A stretch of DNA of 38,024 nucleotides, taken from NCBI GenBank assembly GCA_902785075.1, contig CACZXN010000018.1, forward strand, positions 1 through 38,024, given 5' to 3'. The notes below the pieces were generated by a model. The model had not been told where the DNA came from. It was given only the letters and a program-made list of their open reading frames with translations, and did no database searches. Position numbers and translations under genes: made by a program. This DNA is from an uncultured Bacteroidales bacterium (lineage in GTDB: Bacteria > Bacteroidota > Bacteroidia > Bacteroidales > Bacteroidaceae). Each line of letters starts with the position of its first letter. Positions within the stretch are counted from its first letter, which is position 1. Below, piece after piece: positions 5,465 to 38,024 of this stretch.

Positions 5465-5539
5465 TATTTTGTTATATGATTCTTATATTTGTCGTATGTT
5501 CTACTCTACTTTAACTCTAGTATATCTCTAATTATTAGA

Positions 5540-5605
5540 CTAGAGATGAACTAGAGATGAACTAGAGATGAACTAGAGATGAACTAGAGAAGAACTAGAG
5601 AGATG
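5540..5605. repeat. 11-bp tandem array A, CTAGAGATGAA x6
   Basis: Units start at 5540, 5551, 5562, 5573, 5584 and 5595. Units 1-4 are identical (CTAGAGATGAA), unit 5 differs by one base and unit 6 is degenerate at its end. The self-palindrome CTAG therefore recurs at exactly 11 bp, and another CTAG lies at 5517, 23 bp before the first unit. The array is in a non-coding gap, 76 bp upstream of the small ORF at 5291-5464. It is contiguous, with no spacers, so it is not a CRISPR. Confidence 0.9.
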
Positions 5606-5767: not shown

Positions 5768-5830
5768 GACCCTCCCCCTGACCCCTCCCTTTAGGGCGGG
5801 GAGAAAAGCCCCTCGAACTCCCCCTGTAGG
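5768..5830. repeat. GC-rich C-run/G-run repeat
   Basis: ACCCTCCCCC, CCCTCCCTTTAGGG-like and CCCCTGTAGGGGG segments repeat the composition and wording of 5187-5341, including the AGAAAAGCCCC joiner. It runs directly into the REP-like element at 5828. Confidence 0.55.
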
Positions 5831-5898
5831 GGGAGGAATGGGGTGCATACATGAGATAGGGCTTCCGCCCTATCCTAAATTATTTCGCCCCGTTGGGG
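5828..5898. repeat. REP-like palindromic element, copy 1 (71 bp)
   Basis: Identical over 71 bp to 35631-35701. It contains a perfect hairpin GATAGGGC-TTCC-GCCCTATC and, at its right end, CCCC-GTT-GGGG. The compact paired hairpins in intergenic DNA are typical of REP-type elements. No transposase is nearby. Confidence 0.85.
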
Positions 5899-6022
5899 CT
5901 GTTTGAAATAAACAGTCCCATATTGGGAACATGGAACTATAGAACGGATGGTTCAGAGCCATGTATGGTGCTTACATATGAAGTTTTATGAAGAATTGTG
6001 AGGTGATGTCACAAAAACATTG

Positions 6023-24554: not shown

Positions 24555-24758
24555 CGATAAATCGCGGAAAGTGCCAAATAATCAAGCAGAAAAGTATGGA
24601 TTTCTCATGAAGATTGTAGAAAAACAGGGTAATAAATAACTTTCCTTTCGCTGTCTGCAAGAGGAAAGTACCTAATAAAGATGAGGCAATGAGATAGAAG
24701 TTGACACTTATGAATCTTCTCTATCTTTCTTGCTGTTCATAGGGTTCGAAATATTGTT

Positions 24759-24856
24759 CCCCCTAAGGGGAATTTTTGCAGCCCCTAGGGGTAACAAATT
24801 TTTCCCCTAAGGGTAATTGCTATTTCGTGACTGAAAATAGAGATAACCCATAGGGG
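24759..24856. repeat. 22-bp phased palindrome array G
   Basis: CCCCTAAGGGG (24760), CCCCTAGGGG (24782) and CCCCTAAGGG (24804) start exactly 22 bp apart. A fourth weaker palindrome, ACCCATAGGGG, starts at 24846, 42 bp on. AT-rich tracts (AATTTTT, AAATTTTT) fill the turn between palindromes. It begins 29 bp after the porN stop, in the gap that also carries the fumarase promoter. It could act as a transcription block between operons or as a protein-binding array. Confidence 0.75.
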
Positions 24857-33105: not shown

Positions 33106-33125
33106 GCCGACTTCGTTTTAACATG

Positions 33126-33133
33126 CAAAGATA
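33126..33133 (-). promoter_or_regulatory. Bacteroidota -7 promoter element (7TM-HD gene)
   Basis: On the minus strand TATCTTTG followed by C, 20 bp before the ATG at 33105. It may also drive the type IX operon by read-through. Confidence 0.7.
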
Positions 33134-33216
33134 ATAAAAAAAACAGAATTTATCTCATTATTCATCATTTTTTTCATTTTTTCAATTCGTCAATTCTCCA
33201 ATTCTTCATTTTTTAC

Positions 33217-33224
33217 TAACTTTG
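33217..33224 (+). promoter_or_regulatory. Bacteroidota -7 promoter element (nucleoside transporter)
   Basis: TAACTTTG followed by C on the plus strand. The predicted start near 33229 leaves a leader of about 65 nt. It is divergent from the 33126 promoter, with CAATTC-type short repeats (33182-33208) in between. Confidence 0.75.
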
Positions 33225-33294
33225 CGCTCGGAACCTACGAATTAATCCATCTCGTCAGTCATTACGATTTATCAATTTTACAAACAAATATAAA

Positions 33295-34569
33295 ATGGCA
33301 TCAACAACTAATTCGGGCGGTTTGAAATTCCGCCTCACCGTTCTAAATTTCCTTGAGTTTGCAATATGGGGAGCCTACCTCACCTGTATGTCACGTTATC
33401 TCATAACAGCCGGTTTGGGCGACTATATCTCATATTTCTATAGCGTACAAGGCTTTGTGTCACTATTCATGCCCGCATTGATGGGTATCGTAGCCGACCG
33501 CTGGATTCAAGCACAGAAAACACTGTCATTGTGTCAGTTCATAGCAGGTATAGCCATGTGTGCGGTTGCATTCTATGGAAACAGCGCTGGATCGAATGCC
33601 GATTTCAGCATCTTGTTCTCGTTATACACCCTCAGTGTTGCATTCTTCATGCCAACCATTGCATTGACCAACAGTGTGGCTTATGCAGCACTCGAAAATG
33701 CAGGGGAAGACACAGTGAAGGCATTCCCCCCTATTCGCGTTTGGGGAACCATCGGATTCATCATCTCCATGCTATGTGTCGACTGGAGCGGATTGCAGGA
33801 CAAACCTTGGCAATTCGCCGTCTCAGGCGGTCTCAGCATCATCATGGCATTCTATGCCCTGACCATGCCAGCATGTCCTACTAACCAAGGAGGAGAGAAG
33901 AAGTCGTTCATCGATGCCCTCGGACTCCGTGCCTTTACACTGTTCAAGCAAAAGAAGATGGCGATCTTCTTCATTTTCTCGATGATGCTTGGTTCCGCAT
34001 TGCAGATTACGAACGGCTATGCCAATCCGTTCATCGCATCATTTGGAGCCGAGGAAGCCTTTGCCGACACCTTTGGCGTACAACATGCCAACACACTGAT
34101 TTCGCTGTCACAGATATCCGAGACCCTCTGCATCCTGCTCATTCCATTCTTCCTCAAGCGGTTTGGCATCAAGATTGTGATGCTCATGTCCATGTTCGCA
34201 TGGGTACTACGCTTCGGTTTCTTTGCCATAGGCGATCCAGGATTCCCAGGAGTCATCCTGCTCATCCTATCAATGATTGTCTACGGAGTAGCATTCGACT
34301 TCTTCAACATCAGCGGATCACTGTTTGTCGACCAAGAGACAGACCTTAACATCCGCAGCAGCGCGCAAGGCTTGTTCATGATGATGACCAACGGATTTGG
34401 AGCCTCCATAGGTATGTTGCTTGCAGGAGGGGTAGTCAACCACTACACAAAGCAAGACAACGGTTACACCATAGGCGAATGGGACACCTGTTGGTACATC
34501 TTTGCAGGCTATGCACTCATCGTAGCCATCCTATTTGCCATCCTATTCCGGTATAAGCATGTAAGATAA
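33295..34569 (+). CDS. Nucleoside:proton symporter (NupG-like MFS)
   Basis: 424 residues with about 12 membrane helices. The N-terminus LKFRLTVLNFLEFAIWGAYL and the loop MPALMGIVADRWIQAQKTLS are typical of the NupG/XapB nucleoside-H+ symporter family, as are FPPIRVWGTIGFI and the late SAQGLFMMMTNGFGASIG. It imports nucleosides across the inner membrane. It is a single-gene unit: promoter at 33217, followed by a long repeat-rich gap. Codon use looks like that of its neighbours. Confidence 0.9.
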   Translation: MASTTNSGGLKFRLTVLNFLEFAIWGAYLTCMSRYLITAGLGDYISYFYSVQGFVSLFMPALMGIVADRWIQAQKTLSLCQFIAGIAMCAVAFYGNSAGSNADFSILFSLYTLSVAFFMPTIALTNSVAYAALENAGEDTVKAFPPIRVWGTIGFIISMLCVDWSGLQDKPWQFAVSGGLSIIMAFYALTMPACPTNQGGEKKSFIDALGLRAFTLFKQKKMAIFFIFSMMLGSALQITNGYANPFIASFGAEEAFADTFGVQHANTLISLSQISETLCILLIPFFLKRFGIKIVMLMSMFAWVLRFGFFAIGDPGFPGVILLILSMIVYGVAFDFFNISGSLFVDQETDLNIRSSAQGLFMMMTNGFGASIGMLLAGGVVNHYTKQDNGYTIGEWDTCWYIFAGYALIVAILFAILFRYKHVR

Positions 34570-34623
34570 TAGCGAAAACTTGTTCTTACCTCTAACTCAC
34601 CCATACCGTTCACTCGCTCTACC

Positions 34624-34663
34624 CATACTCTAGCTATACTGTTTGAGTAAGCCTAGAGTATGG
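34624..34663. repeat. 11-bp inverted repeat leading into array B
   Basis: CCATACTCTAG (34623-34633 region) is the exact reverse complement of CTAGAGTATGG (34653-34663), the array B junction sequence, with a spacer of about 19 nt. In RNA from the transporter gene it could form a hairpin; no T tract follows, so terminator use is uncertain. Confidence 0.55.
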
Positions 34664-34756
34664 CTAGAAGCAGCTTAGAGTATGGCTAGAGTAAGCCTAG
34701 AGTATGGCTAGAGTAAGCCTAGAGTATGGCTAAGGTATGCTAAGGGTATGGATAGA
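34647..34756. repeat. 11-bp array B with alternating units, about 10 units
   Basis: Ten contiguous 11-mers start at 34647 and every 11 bp after. GTAAGCCTAGA and GTATGGCTAGA alternate, with one variant (AGCAGCTTAGA) and three degenerate units at the end. The palindrome CTAG (or a near match) recurs each 11 bp, and the preceding bases alternate AGCC/GGCT, which are reverse complements. It lies 77 bp after the transporter gene. Confidence 0.9.
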
Positions 34757-34823
34757 AACCCTCTTGAATCTTCATTAGGTCTGCACGGTTTATCCCTTAG
34801 ACTGGACTGTTTTCGCATGTATC

Positions 34824-34925
34824 TTATCTATCATTTTGCTTTGTTATCCTTGTAACAAAGTACTCCCCCATTGTTCCACCAACACGACCTTGAACACCGT
34901 ACATGTCTAAATAAACTTTTGCCAT
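34824..34925 (-). CDS. Small ORF, MAK-type, 33 aa (tentative)
   Basis: ATG at 34925, TAA at 34824. The product starts MAKVYLDMYGVQGRVGGTMG and ends TRITKQNDR. It shares MAK...YGxxGR with the 57-codon ORF at 5291-5464, although the two loci lie 29 kb apart. Array C begins 45 bp upstream of the ATG and array B lies 67 bp beyond the stop. No -7 element is seen upstream. It could be a small protein, the start of a decayed longer gene, or part of a mobile repeat unit; the DUF6266-like N-terminus is a guess. Confidence 0.4.
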   Translation of the reverse strand: MAKVYLDMYGVQGRVGGTMGEYFVTRITKQNDR

Positions 34926-34969
34926 AATGCTAATAAGTTTTAATTAATACCTAAATCATACCCTTGGAG

Positions 34970-35024
34970 ATAGAGAGAGGACTGAGAGGAGACTGAGAGG
35001 GGACTGAGAGGGGACTGAGCAAGC
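34970..35024. repeat. 11-bp tandem array C, ACTGAGAGGGG type
   Basis: Units start at 34970 (degenerate), 34981, 34992, 35003 and 35014 (partial). The central three read ACTGAGAGGAG, ACTGAGAGGGG and ACTGAGAGGGG. Unlike the other arrays the unit has no palindromic core. It lies 45 bp upstream of the small ORF at 34824-34925. Confidence 0.85.
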
Positions 35025-35077
35025 CTTGTGCAATCATCCCGAAAACATCCTAAAATAACGAAAGATACGAAAATCTA

Positions 35078-35256
35078 TTCTTACTGATGACAATCATGGA
35101 TGATTGCTTTGCTTAGCAAAGGTTTTGTTTTTCTAAAGTGCTTCTGAATGCTAGTTTCAAGACACTTAAGCAAAATAAAACTTATCATCAATACTAAAAC
35201 ATCTGTGTGAATCCGTAAGATCCGTGGTCGTTAAAAAAACATATCATCAGTAAGAA
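35078..35256. repeat. 179-bp segment bounded by a 13-bp inverted repeat
   Basis: TTCTTACTGATGA (35078-35090) is the exact reverse complement of TCATCAGTAAGAA (35244-35256). A weaker third copy (TATCATCAATACT) lies near 35183. Inside are two perfect small palindromes, AATCAT-gg-ATGATT and CTTTGCT-t-AGCAAAG. It could be a miniature mobile element; no target-site duplication was recognised. Confidence 0.5.
35201..35228 (+). repeat. CTGTGTGAATCCGT-type repeat, copy 1
   Basis: ATCTGTGTGAATCCGTAAGA and the following TCCGTGG resemble 35314-35348 (CTCTGTGTGATCCGTGTTAT). Repeats worded like this recur in Bacteroidota intergenic DNA. Confidence 0.5.
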
Positions 35257-35313
35257 CCTACCTATTTATTTTTGCATTGGTTTCGTATTTTCGCACTTTT
35301 TCGCAATCCATGA

Positions 35314-35348
35314 ATCTCTGTGTGATCCGTGTTATCTGTGTGAGGTTA
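35314..35348 (+). repeat. CTGTGTGATCCGTG-type repeat, copy 2
   Basis: TCTCTGTGTGATCCGTG, then TTATCTGTGTGAGG: the second half repeats the first imperfectly. Partner of 35201-35228. Confidence 0.5.
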
Positions 35349-35417
35349 AACAACTATTCAAAGTTCAAGGTTCAAGCTGAAGGATTCAACTTCAATTTTT
35401 CAACTGCCGCTTTGACC

Positions 35418-35506
35418 TGCCTTCGGTGAAGCCTCTCCGGCCCCCACATACTACCTTCTCTCTCGTAGAGAGAAGTACGTATGGGGTCAGAGCTTCACCT
35501 ACGGCA
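35418..35506. repeat. Long imperfect palindrome, about 89 bp
   Basis: TGCC-ttc-GGTGAAGC pairs with GCTTCACC-tac-GGCA at the outside, CCCCACATAC with GTATGGGG in the middle, and CTTCTCTCT-cgt-AGAGAGAAG (35455-35475) at the tip. The whole segment folds into one cruciform or stem-loop. It is intergenic with no neighbouring transposase. Confidence 0.75.
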
Positions 35507-35530
35507 ACTCCTAAAATCTAAGACCAAAAA

Positions 35531-35596
35531 CAGCGTAAATTCCAAACGAATTAAGCCTAAATTCAAGGAGAATTCAGCGTAAATTCCCATCGAAGT
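35531..35596. repeat. 11/22-bp array F with AATT every 11 bp
   Basis: Three 22-bp units start at 35531, 35553 and 35575. The self-palindrome AATT starts at 35538, 35549, 35560, 35571 and 35582, each exactly 11 bp apart, with a near match (AAGT) at 35593. CAGCGTAAATTC opens units 1 and 3; unit 2 is a variant. Confidence 0.85.
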
Positions 35597-35630
35597 CAGG
35601 CTCCAAACTCACTTCATGTGTTTGTCATGC

Positions 35631-35701
35631 AGGGGGAGGAATGGGGTGCATACATGAGATAGGGCTTCCGCCCTATCCTAAATTATTTCGCCCCGTTGGG
35701 G
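35631..35701. repeat. REP-like palindromic element, copy 2 (71 bp)
   Basis: Identical over 71 bp to 5828-5898, in the same orientation, with hairpins GATAGGGC-TTCC-GCCCTATC and CCCC-GTT-GGGG. The flanking sequences differ, so the element itself was copied or moved. Confidence 0.85.
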
Positions 35702-35719
35702 GAGAGAAATCATAAATTC

Positions 35720-35774
35720 ATGTTAGGTTTATGTTAGGTCTTAGTTACCTCTTAGTTAGGTCTTAGTTACCTCT
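35720..35774. repeat. 11-bp array D, GTTAGGT/GTTACCT alternating, 5 units
   Basis: Units start at 35720, 35731, 35742, 35753 and 35764: ATGTTAGGTTT, ATGTTAGGTCT, TAGTTACCTCT, TAGTTAGGTCT, TAGTTACCTCT. The cores AGGT and ACCT are reverse complements and alternate over the last four units. An extra ATGTTAGGTCT lies at 35831-35841. Confidence 0.85.
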
Positions 35775-35911
35775 TTAGAGAACCGAAAACACGACTACAA
35801 GTATCTGCAAAGCTATTTTTAGGGTATTTTATGTTAGGTCTTTGCGAATTTCATATTATTCTGCATTATTCATCGAATCATCCGAGAGATTTGACACACG
35901 GTATGTCGAAA

Positions 35912-35977
35912 CGGTCCCTCACTGGGAATCAAGCGGTCCCACACTGGGAATCAAGCGGTCCCACATTGGGACTCAAG
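35912..35977. repeat. 22-bp array E, three units with TCCC/GGGA
   Basis: Units start at 35912, 35934 and 35956. Each holds the near-palindrome TCCCA-nnn-TGGGA (TCCCTcacTGGGA in the first) between CGG and ATCAAG or CTCAAG. A single similar unit, TCCCAtatTGGGA, lies at 5916-5928 just after the first REP-like copy. Confidence 0.85.
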
Positions 35978-36010
35978 AGATGTTGAGCTGTAGGAAACGG
36001 AAACCGTTAG

Positions 36011-36048
36011 GGTAAGAGCTGTAGAGCAGAAGGGGGCTCTTTCTTACC
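36011..36048 (-). terminator. Possible hairpin at the 3' end of the fasciclin gene
   Basis: GGTAAGAGC (36011-36019) can pair with GCTCTTTCTTACC (36036-36048) with a bulge, overlapping the stop codon. It has no T tract, so termination is uncertain. Confidence 0.25.
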
Positions 36049-38024
36049 ACTTATCCTCAGGATAGATTTCGTTGTTGTAAACGGATCGTGGACATAGTTC
36101 CATGTAGTCGAATGCGAAGGAGCCATTCGAGGTTTCCAACTTCTGTTGTACACGTACCCAGTGTTCGGACTTTCCGTCAGAATGGAAGATGGTGTAGATG
36201 CGTCGCATGTCATCACGGATGGTACGCTGGAGTGTTCGTCCACCGGTACCGTCTGCTCCAGTTGCTCCATACGATGCCGGTCCTTTCATCCATCCACGGT
36301 TGTGAAGGGCTTTGTCGTATGCTGCGATTGCTTCATCGTCGCCCAAATCGTCATCTGACTTCCATCCGATTGACGGGTCGTCGCCGTGTTTGCGGAGGTC
36401 GATAGGTATGCCACAGGGTGCTCCGTCGAAATAGACTTGTATGATGCCTCGGGTGGCGAATCCGATACATACCTGGACACGGAACTCGTATTCTCCTTCG
36501 GGTACGGGTGGTATCTTGAACTGGATGTCGTACATGCCTGTTATCTGTACTTCGTCGCCTTGATATGACCAGAAGTCGAGATAGCGATTGCGGACGTGTA
36601 TGTGTGTTTTTGCGTCTTCGAATTTGAAGTTCTTGAGCGATCCTGCCTTAAAGGCGAGACAGGTATTGGGATTTTGTTCGGGATCGTAGGATGTGCTACG
36701 TGCGCCATATTGACCTGGGTAGTCGGGACAGCCTCCTGTGCCTCGCACTCCATGTCCGCGTGCGCCACTGGTGATGAAATCGGGGGACAGGGTGGTTGCA
36801 TCAATACGAAGGCGCTCGTTCAGCACTTCTTCCTGTGTCTGACGCCCATAGTCGATGATGTCGTTGAGGTAGTGGTACACTCCGTTGGTTGCCAAAAGGT
36901 CGATGGAGGCTTCGGACGGGGAGAGAATCCTTGAGCCTGGGATGAACACTCCTCTGCTGTCCTTACGATTCTGCACGCCCCTACGGTTGATATATCGTCC
37001 TGCTGATGAGCCTGAGGGGTATGATATCTTCATGATGGAATAGGGCATCATGGTCTCATACCAATCTGCCACATCCCAATGTTTGCGGTCGAAATTGGAT
37101 GCAAGCAGTCGGTTGTCGCATGTTAGCATGTTGTAAATGATTCGCTCGGGCAACAGGTGGTAGGACACAAACCGATTGAGTGAGTTTCGACGGTCGGTTT
37201 CGTCTGTCACATCTGCATCTTCTGGATACATCTCGTCGTAAACTTGCTTGGCATAGGCACGTAGGTCGTCGATGGTGTAGATGCCATGCTGGGCAAACAC
37301 TTCGTTCTTCTCAGCAAAGGCTGTGTAGCATATATAGCGTTTTTCCATGTATGACACATTATCGACTGTTGAGCCTGTAAGGTGACAAACTCCTTCTGCA
37401 AACGAGTCAACTGAACAATGATAGTTCTCGTCGATATAGTCGCGCAGGGAATCGTCCATGTGGGTAAGGAACAGTGCTTGTGTGAAGAGTGAGATGGTTG
37501 AATCCTGAAGCATGTAGTCGGGCAGCATCTCCGTTGCGGCATTGATGACGTGGTCAATGGTGTGAACCACACCGTTTTCTACAGAGTCGTCGCGATGGAT
37601 GATCTGTGCCGAGCGATTGATATAGTAGTTGATGGGCACGGATTCGGACTCTGTAGTGTCCTGCTCACATGTGATAGTGAGATAGCGGTCAAGCATATTC
37701 ATCGTAGGTAGTGTGGCATCCGAGAAATAGTAGGTGAAATAAGACTGCTCAATAATGTGTGTGGCTGCGATGGTGTCGCAATCCTCCACACTCAGCTCGT
37801 CGACTGACGAGAGGCCGCGTCCTGCCAAGAAGAGGTCGATCGCCTCATCGGTGGGAGCAAAGACGGTATAAGAACCGTAAGTGCCCAAAAGATCGAGGCT
37901 AACCATGCGCGACTTATTGATGATCTCGACAAACTTACTGAACAACTCAGGTCGTTTCAGCAAGTATGCATTGGCCATATCGCCCTTAGCGGTGTAATAG
38001 TTCTCGCGGTCGGGAGTGTCGTCA
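36044..38024 (-). CDS. Fasciclin-domain surface protein (5' end outside window)
   Basis: The frame stays open to the right edge: 15 further codons (DDTPDRENYYTAKGD) precede the first internal Met at 37978, so the N-terminus is missing. About 659 residues are visible. The first FAS1 domain has YGSYTVFAPTDEAIDLFLAG and GVVHTIDHVI; a second, more divergent one has LNRFVSYHLLPERIIYNML and GVYHYLNDIIDY. The last 220 residues (VPEGEYEFRVQVCIGFATRG, then HDGKSEHW-like text) form a beta-rich C-terminal domain. Such proteins in Bacteroidales are usually lipoproteins encoded near SusC/SusD pairs; adhesion or glycan binding is inferred. Confidence 0.8.
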   Translation of the reverse strand, partial: DDTPDRENYYTAKGDMANAYLLKRPELFSKFVEIINKSRMVSLDLLGTYGSYTVFAPTDEAIDLFLAGRGLSSVDELSVEDCDTIAATHIIEQSYFTYYFSDATLPTMNMLDRYLTITCEQDTTESESVPINYYINRSAQIIHRDDSVENGVVHTIDHVINAATEMLPDYMLQDSTISLFTQALFLTHMDDSLRDYIDENYHCSVDSFAEGVCHLTGSTVDNVSYMEKRYICYTAFAEKNEVFAQHGIYTIDDLRAYAKQVYDEMYPEDADVTDETDRRNSLNRFVSYHLLPERIIYNMLTCDNRLLASNFDRKHWDVADWYETMMPYSIMKISYPSGSSAGRYINRRGVQNRKDSRGVFIPGSRILSPSEASIDLLATNGVYHYLNDIIDYGRQTQEEVLNERLRIDATTLSPDFITSGARGHGVRGTGGCPDYPGQYGARSTSYDPEQNPNTCLAFKAGSLKNFKFEDAKTHIHVRNRYLDFWSYQGDEVQITGMYDIQFKIPPVPEGEYEFRVQVCIGFATRGIIQVYFDGAPCGIPIDLRKHGDDPSIGWKSDDDLGDDEAIAAYDKALHNRGWMKGPASYGATGADGTGGRTLQRTIRDDMRRIYTIFHSDGKSEHWVRVQQKLETSNGSFAFDYMELCPRSVYNNEIYPEDKW

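Follow-up and report, generated by a model that had tools for sequence, protein, structure and literature searches.

The window, by which we mean the whole 38,024-nucleotide stretch analysed, comes from a 2.9-Mb genome assembled in 105 contigs and 85.5% complete. It includes a gap bounded by a nucleoside-symporter-like gene (33295–34569) and an opposite-strand fasciclin-domain gene (36044–37978), with no open reading frame (ORF) of at least 100 aa anywhere in it. In the nearest genomes the flanking genes are 77–78% identical and the same gap is not alignable. After merging of overlapping rows, TRF places five arrays with a score of at least 50 in the gap, with periods of 44, 11, 22, 22 and 22 bp, and no further array at that score; across 300 dinucleotide shuffles of this gap the mean was 0.003 such arrays. 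A sequence-only reading had described these five as unrelated in sequence and of a period of exactly 11 or 22 bp. All were found where that reading had placed them, but "exactly 11" is not strict for array D, since its half-units lie 11 or 12 bp apart in sister species. On the other side of the symporter gene, about 100 bp (33125–33225) between this gene and a divergent HD-domain gene match a sister contig (L009/L159) at 85%, but in the opposite orientation with respect to the genes on either side; a promoter segment that is invertible or symmetric may lie here.

Array B (34645–34757) is built of 22/44-bp units in which each 22 bp consists of two similar 11-mers, GAGTAAGCCTA and GAGTATGGCTA. 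Array C (34973–35019) has 11-bp units, GAGAGGGGACT, without a dyad. Array F (35531–35599) consists of three weak 22-bp units (70% matches) with loops and linkers that vary between units. The palindrome AATTC-N5-GAATT is present in two of these units, and its right arm is altered in the third. The alternation of short cores with their reverse complements, proposed for arrays B, D and E, is real. Counted as 11-mers, B, C and D have 10.2, 4.3 and 4.4 copies in TRF; E has 3.0 copies and F 3.1. With 40 of 87 candidates scored, the matches listed place B at two other sites in the genome (C3 and C65) and include no other genomic match for C or F. The window has two further arrays, both, like B, C and F, with no strand assigned: an 11-bp array at 5539–5601 (unit ACTAGAGATGA), in which TRF detects units that have CTAGAG in common with array B, and a CCC/GGG array at 24757–24815 with three unlike dyads at 22 and 22.5 bp, which is absent from the TRF list of the window.

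One non-coding element of about 260 bp, read here on the forward strand, has arrays D and E at its two ends. Array D (35722–35776), at the left end, alternates the 11-mers GTTAGGTCTTA and GTTACCTCTTA, with GTTAGGT and GTTACCT taking turns to give the 22-bp period; array E (35912–35977), at the right end, repeats the dyad TCCC-N5-GGGA three times with a pitch of 22 bp. Between them lies a middle part (35777–35911) that is conserved when element copies are aligned, and in front of D a left module with a GATAGGGCTTCCGCCCTATC hairpin (35628–35721), of which 35628–35701 is a 99% identical copy of window positions 5825–5898. The segment carrying D and E (35628–35980) has at least 36 matches in its own genome, and at least six non-self matches span at least 190 bases of the 386-base element query, in each case with 22 of 49 candidates scored. 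Six aligned copies have the middle part in common; their count of D units varies, and E units number three or four per copy. The left hairpin module is found in four of the six, one of them without part of the hairpin, and another repeated left module in the other two. The element with both end arrays is present in the genome carrying the window (G000) and in the sister species G006, G010 and G003.

The copies are dispersed, intergenic, multiple and without a transposase gene, as are those of a MITE of the BrickBuilt type. Inverted pairs were found in one of three copies tested: copy L089 has pairs of 12–15 nt (83–92%) that link array D to the right flank, no pair connects one end of copy L153 with the other, and the window copy has none of at least 9 nt within 35610–36010. 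The element middle shows no conserved RNA fold (−1.6 kcal/mol, with a double change in 0 of 9 predicted pairs). Two observations concern the left modules. A match to Acido-Lenti-1 (Rfam RF01687) lies at 5855–5900 of the window, with a near-identical copy of the segment at about 35660–35705 and similar pieces at many sites in the genome; and a 63-bp repeated module (CTACGGGGTTTCTAAGTTCCCTCGTCC...), seen at L095 (14695–14820) and in L107 and L096 leftward of array D, takes the place of the hairpin module at the left of some element copies. The gap is best explained as an island of short dispersed intergenic repeats. With D and E belonging to one dispersed element and B matched elsewhere, the five arrays do not have five independent origins.

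The spectrum of unit lengths was examined in a sample that covers about 27% of the genome and in which "unselected" denotes the first 20 kb of 20 contigs, stretches that may exceed the average in repeats as ends of draft contigs. Sequence outside ORFs of at least 100 aa was taken as intergenic, so that some small genes may be counted with it, and a lag was scored for an intergenic region when a 12-base stretch recurred with at most one mismatch. Among 139 unselected regions, lags 7, 14, 21 and 42 were present in 23, 14, 20 and 9 regions, lags 22, 44 and 11 in 10, 8 and 3, and lags 8, 15, 16 and 18 in 9, 7, 7 and 8; lags 10, 12, 13, 17, 19, 20 and 23 occurred in 0, 0, 1, 1, 1, 0 and 2. Shuffles of the same regions gave at most 0.5 per lag (0.2 each for lags 22 and 44), and coding pieces of equal lengths at most two per lag. 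The stretches selected by their match to the gap, which are biased upward, had lag 22 in 26 and lag 11 in 16 of 122 intergenic regions. Removal of every region with the D motif or a CCC/GGG dyad left 108 of the 139, with lag 21 in 12 and lag 22 in 4, so much of the peak at 22 comes from these two families. TRF reports 55 non-coding arrays in the unselected stretches; 27 have a period of 7, 14, 21 or 42 bp and nine a period of 11, 22, 33 or 44 bp. When related units were merged, the sample held eight families at 21 bp, ten at 22 bp and at most one each at 17–20 and 23 bp; the merging joins 7-mers too readily, and the count of 7-bp families is left out.

Intergenic unit length in this sample is thus quantised, with 7/14/21 favoured at least as much as 11/22/44, and one unit length is common to unrelated non-coding arrays of the same genome. 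What the sample shows is a genome-wide class of intergenic tandem repeats with restricted length and free sequence. A genome-wide excess at 11 and 22 bp had been named as a check; lags 22 and 44 are raised over shuffles, and lag 11 is present in only 3 of 139 regions. A helical-turn rule as the general cause is rejected because lags 7, 14, 8 and 16, which are not whole turns, are equally prominent. A quantum of 11/3 bp was also dropped, as the lags beyond 24 fall on multiples of 7, 8 and 11. Arrays of 7, 14 and 21 bp (ATGGTCA, GTTTACC and AGAACTA among them) form the commonest class, with 26 of the 55 unselected arrays, and occur at L103, L104, L107, L119, L128 and other loci; those of 7 and 14 bp are not clearly biased towards any gene arrangement, and our literature search returned no description of such 7/14/21-bp arrays for Bacteroides. 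An array with a 52-bp period (2.3 copies; L109, 18229–18351), a unit size also reported from Bacillus, was seen once in the sample of this genome.

Related genomes have the same habit in part. Three sets of sister-species stretches show the same lag peaks as the genome itself, one of these species (G006, 61 regions) having lag 7 in 13, lag 21 in 7, lag 22 in 9 and lag 20 in none, and their merged families number 13 at 22 bp, one at 21 bp and four at 18 bp. Across 33 further Bacteroidales loci (L013–L047, 189 regions), lags 7, 21 and 22 were found in 18, 16 and 13 regions; eleven Prevotella-like loci (72 regions) had lag 22 in 9, lag 44 in 7 and lag 7 in only 2. Ten Flavobacteriales loci (110 regions) gave at most three regions per lag, a sample drawn from 12 more families within the order (98 regions) likewise at most three for lags up to 45, and two genomes of the same family (18 regions) at most one for lags up to 45. 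The length habit is thus patchy within the order.

Within the genus, units of 21–22 bp are enriched in dyads. A stem of at least 5 was found in 16 of 35 such families against 5.3 expected (9 of 20 in the genome itself and 7 of 15 in sister species), compared with 7 of 24 for genus families of 13 and 15–20 bp (5.4 expected) and 2 of 13 for 21–22-bp families of other Bacteroidales (1.6 expected). An alternative dyad score reached p 0.05 in 9 of 39 units of 21–22 bp and in none of the 51 units of 7, 11 or 14–16 bp. Since dyads are not enriched in the other Bacteroidales, the constant length seen in those genomes calls for an explanation other than dyad binding. The main dyad family of the genus units is CCC-N3..6-GGG, which is nearly absent from sampled loci outside the genus. 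Among neighbouring dyads of this family within 60 bp of each other, 43 of 73 pairs from the genome itself and 19 of 33 from sister species are spaced at 20.5–22.5 bp; none of the pairs is spaced at 14–20 bp and 11 of 106 are spaced at 23–30 bp. Threefold shuffling yielded nine pairs, none of them at 20.5–22.5 bp. When 61 whole genomes were searched for TCCC-N5-GGGA occurring twice with a linker of 2–20 bp, the paired dyad turned up in 5 of 17 genus genomes (29, 3, 12, 5 and 11 matches), in none of 20 other genomes of the same family and in one of 24 genomes of the order (one match). The pitch in the genus is 22 bp in 58 of 60 pairs, 21 in one and 19 in one, although many of these pairs are copies of one element and not independent cases.

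Related CCC/GGG dyads hold roughly this pitch where their flanks differ. Merging of pairs more than 75% alike reduced the 62 pairs at 20.5–22.5 bp to 19, of which six have a flank identity of 0.43 or less and seven have neighbours with different loop lengths. This comparison took in only pairs already at that spacing, and runs of four C or G leave loop length and centre uncertain by half to one base; an earlier list of unlike loops, in which 10 of 25 pairs reflect merely an extra G or C in the run, was replaced by the 7 of 19 given here. One pair with unlike loops is spaced at 23.5 bp. Flanks of neighbouring units are 0.50 identical, compared with 0.39 between units of different arrays, and this greater likeness of neighbours means that tandem duplication took part.

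A broader claim, that hairpins of unrelated sequence form a mosaic at this spacing, shrank once redundant pairs had been merged, and we therefore confine ourselves to the CCC/GGG family. For hairpins of any sequence, unlike neighbours at 21–22 bp number 13 against 3.6 in shuffles for the genome itself, where a spacing of 29 bp is raised too (8 unlike pairs against 1.5), 2 against 1.7 for sister species and 5 against 1.5 for other Bacteroidales. The position of the arrays between genes was similarly reassessed. When all 22/44-bp arrays are pooled, 18 of 42 lie in convergent gaps (8.9 expected); the 31 CCC/GGG arrays taken alone show no such preference, with 17 in co-directional, 6 in divergent and 8 in convergent gaps (16.9, 7.6 and 6.6 expected).

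Judging from sequence and spacing, we favour a reading, to which we give a probability of about 0.4, in which arrays of the E type are serial sites for a putative homodimeric DNA-binding protein, set in a dispersed intergenic repeat. Each TCCC-N5-GGGA dyad would take one putative dimer, and the 22-bp pitch, equal to two helical turns, would align the dimers on one face of the DNA with neighbours touching. The candidate protein may be a mover or maintainer of the element, or a nucleoid protein. Symmetric cores at a strict two-turn pitch, with flanks free to vary, are compatible with adjacent dimers on a single DNA face. The loop lengths of 3–6 are unusual for a rigid dimer, which counts against this reading, as do the absence of a preferred gene arrangement for the CCC/GGG arrays, the greater likeness of neighbouring units and the raised 29-bp spacing of hairpins of any sequence. 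Cooperative binding, as the sequence-only reading had suggested for all five arrays, is plausible for the CCC/GGG dyads; the other period classes (7/14/21 and array C) need not share the dimer mechanism.

The strongest competitor, which we hold to be somewhat unlikely, is a mutational origin: slippage and unequal exchange would produce arrays without function, with a unit length set by the way replication or repair in this lineage duplicates short DNA, and element copies would spread them. That this genome favours 7, 14 and 21 no less than 22 speaks for it, as does the varying number of D units between element copies. Exact isolated two-copy duplications point the same way: in three sets pooled (29 duplications in all at 9–60 bp), five of the six duplications of 17–26 bp measure 21–22 bp. 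However, a blind process should blur the pitch by insertions and deletions, and the retention of 22 bp in nearly all E-type pairs across five species, despite diverged flanks, counts against such an origin, although many of these pairs are element copies.

We regard as improbable a role as RNA or single-stranded DNA, in which the units would be transcribed and fold into a series of short hairpins with a part in RNA stability, in termination or as a sponge. The excess of stems in genus families would suit this explanation, and so would the over-representation of the pooled 22/44-bp arrays in convergent gaps, but the CCC/GGG arrays alone lack that preference, the element middle has no conserved fold and dyads such as CCCCTAGGGG leave almost no loop. 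Covariation in 16 E arrays is weak. Standard pairs make up 84.1% compared with 82.3% in shuffles, whole-structure pairing exceeds that of all slid versions and was reached by 19 of 500 shuffles, and E unit 1 has an outer pair with clear covariation (GC in 8, UA in 7, other in 1). Wobble-type pairs in the E arrays favour one strand: read in the D-to-E orientation, 25 of 48 cells have G-T at pair 7 and 5 have A-C. On the other side, pairs with a double change number 7 against 5.7 in shuffles (reached by 127 of 500), the number of pair types was reached by 445 of 500 shuffles, and the opposite strand scores almost equally.

The three TCCC-N5-GGGA dyads are a defined bait for finding a binding protein, if one exists. 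For the genus, the value of the arrays is that one family keeps its pitch while its flanks change and is tied to one conserved element. Some bacterial genomes carry constant-size satellites of free sequence that still lack an explanation, and a wider proposal, which we consider unlikely, is that some gut Bacteroidales build dyad arrays in which unit sequence varies, the two-turn pitch is held and a putative polymerising protein reads them. If this were true, constant-size bacterial satellites would be protein rulers rather than duplicated words.

Tandem repeats of constant size and variable sequence in bacteria were reportedly described by Subirana and Messeguer in the Journal of Bacteriology in 2020. 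A paper by these authors (PMC8161180) describes repeats of constant size and mutually unrelated sequence, 20–21 or 52 nt long in Bacillus and 20–23 nt long across many groups, with short characteristic sequences that often occur with their reverse inside one repeat; it remarks on two helical turns and proposes a protein that needs a constant size to polymerise. The sequence-only reading had known of no described system with such a rule, and that statement does not stand beside this paper. The same authors published a survey in 2019 (PMC6749651). Against the published search threshold, at least four repeats of at least 10 nt, arrays B, C and D (as 11-mers) lie above and E and F below. The repeats found here resemble those in PMC8161180 in being non-coding, with a unit length near two turns, unrelated units within one genome and a motif with its reverse inside the unit. 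They differ in belonging to a Bacteroidales genus, in their size classes (21–22 is a major class, as 20–23 nt would have it, but 7, 14, 11 and 44 are prominent beside it) and in a dyad family of strict pitch at the end of a dispersed element. That a general nucleoid protein binds these satellites through species-specific short motifs, as the two authors propose for Bacillus, is distinctly improbable for the present arrays. The matching description in PMC8161180 and the absence of promoter bias from the CCC/GGG arrays speak for it; the classes of 7, 14, 11 and 44 that stand out here beside the 20–21 and 52 nt given there, and the placing of one family in a conserved dispersed element, speak against it.

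Two mobile systems come close to the element that we take to carry serial dimer sites. BrickBuilt, a minisatellite MITE of Porphyromonas gingivalis, is dispersed and intergenic and has a 23-nt array and terminal inverted repeats (PMC4596501). The element shares with it the order Bacteroidales, the dispersed intergenic position, a conserved leader and tail and a tandem array of about two turns; BrickBuilt is bounded by its terminal inverted repeats and has a single array at its centre, whereas here there are two different end arrays. The ends of Tn7-like transposons carry arrays of transposase sites of about 20 bp, 22 bp in Tn7 (PMC8649781), and resemble the element in having several units of roughly 20–22 bp per end, seen here as sequence arrays. 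In Tn7-like transposons both ends hold inverted copies of one type of site; the D and E units are unrelated. Membership in this class was rejected, as D (GTTAGGTC) and E (TCCC-N5-GGGA) units differ and no transposase was linked to them. REP/BIME sequences, which are served by RAYT transposases, are likewise short intergenic palindromes in clusters. The Y1 transposase domain of RAYT (PF01797) had no match in the 85.5% complete assembly, and we rejected this membership as well. Our literature search, which covered few subscription-journal papers, returned no paper on quantisation at 7/14/21 and 11/22 bp in Bacteroidales. In our judgement the general rule, constant size with unrelated sequence, is already in print; what looks new is the TCCC-N5-GGGA dyad family, its pitch held at about 22 bp between unlike flanks in a dispersed element.
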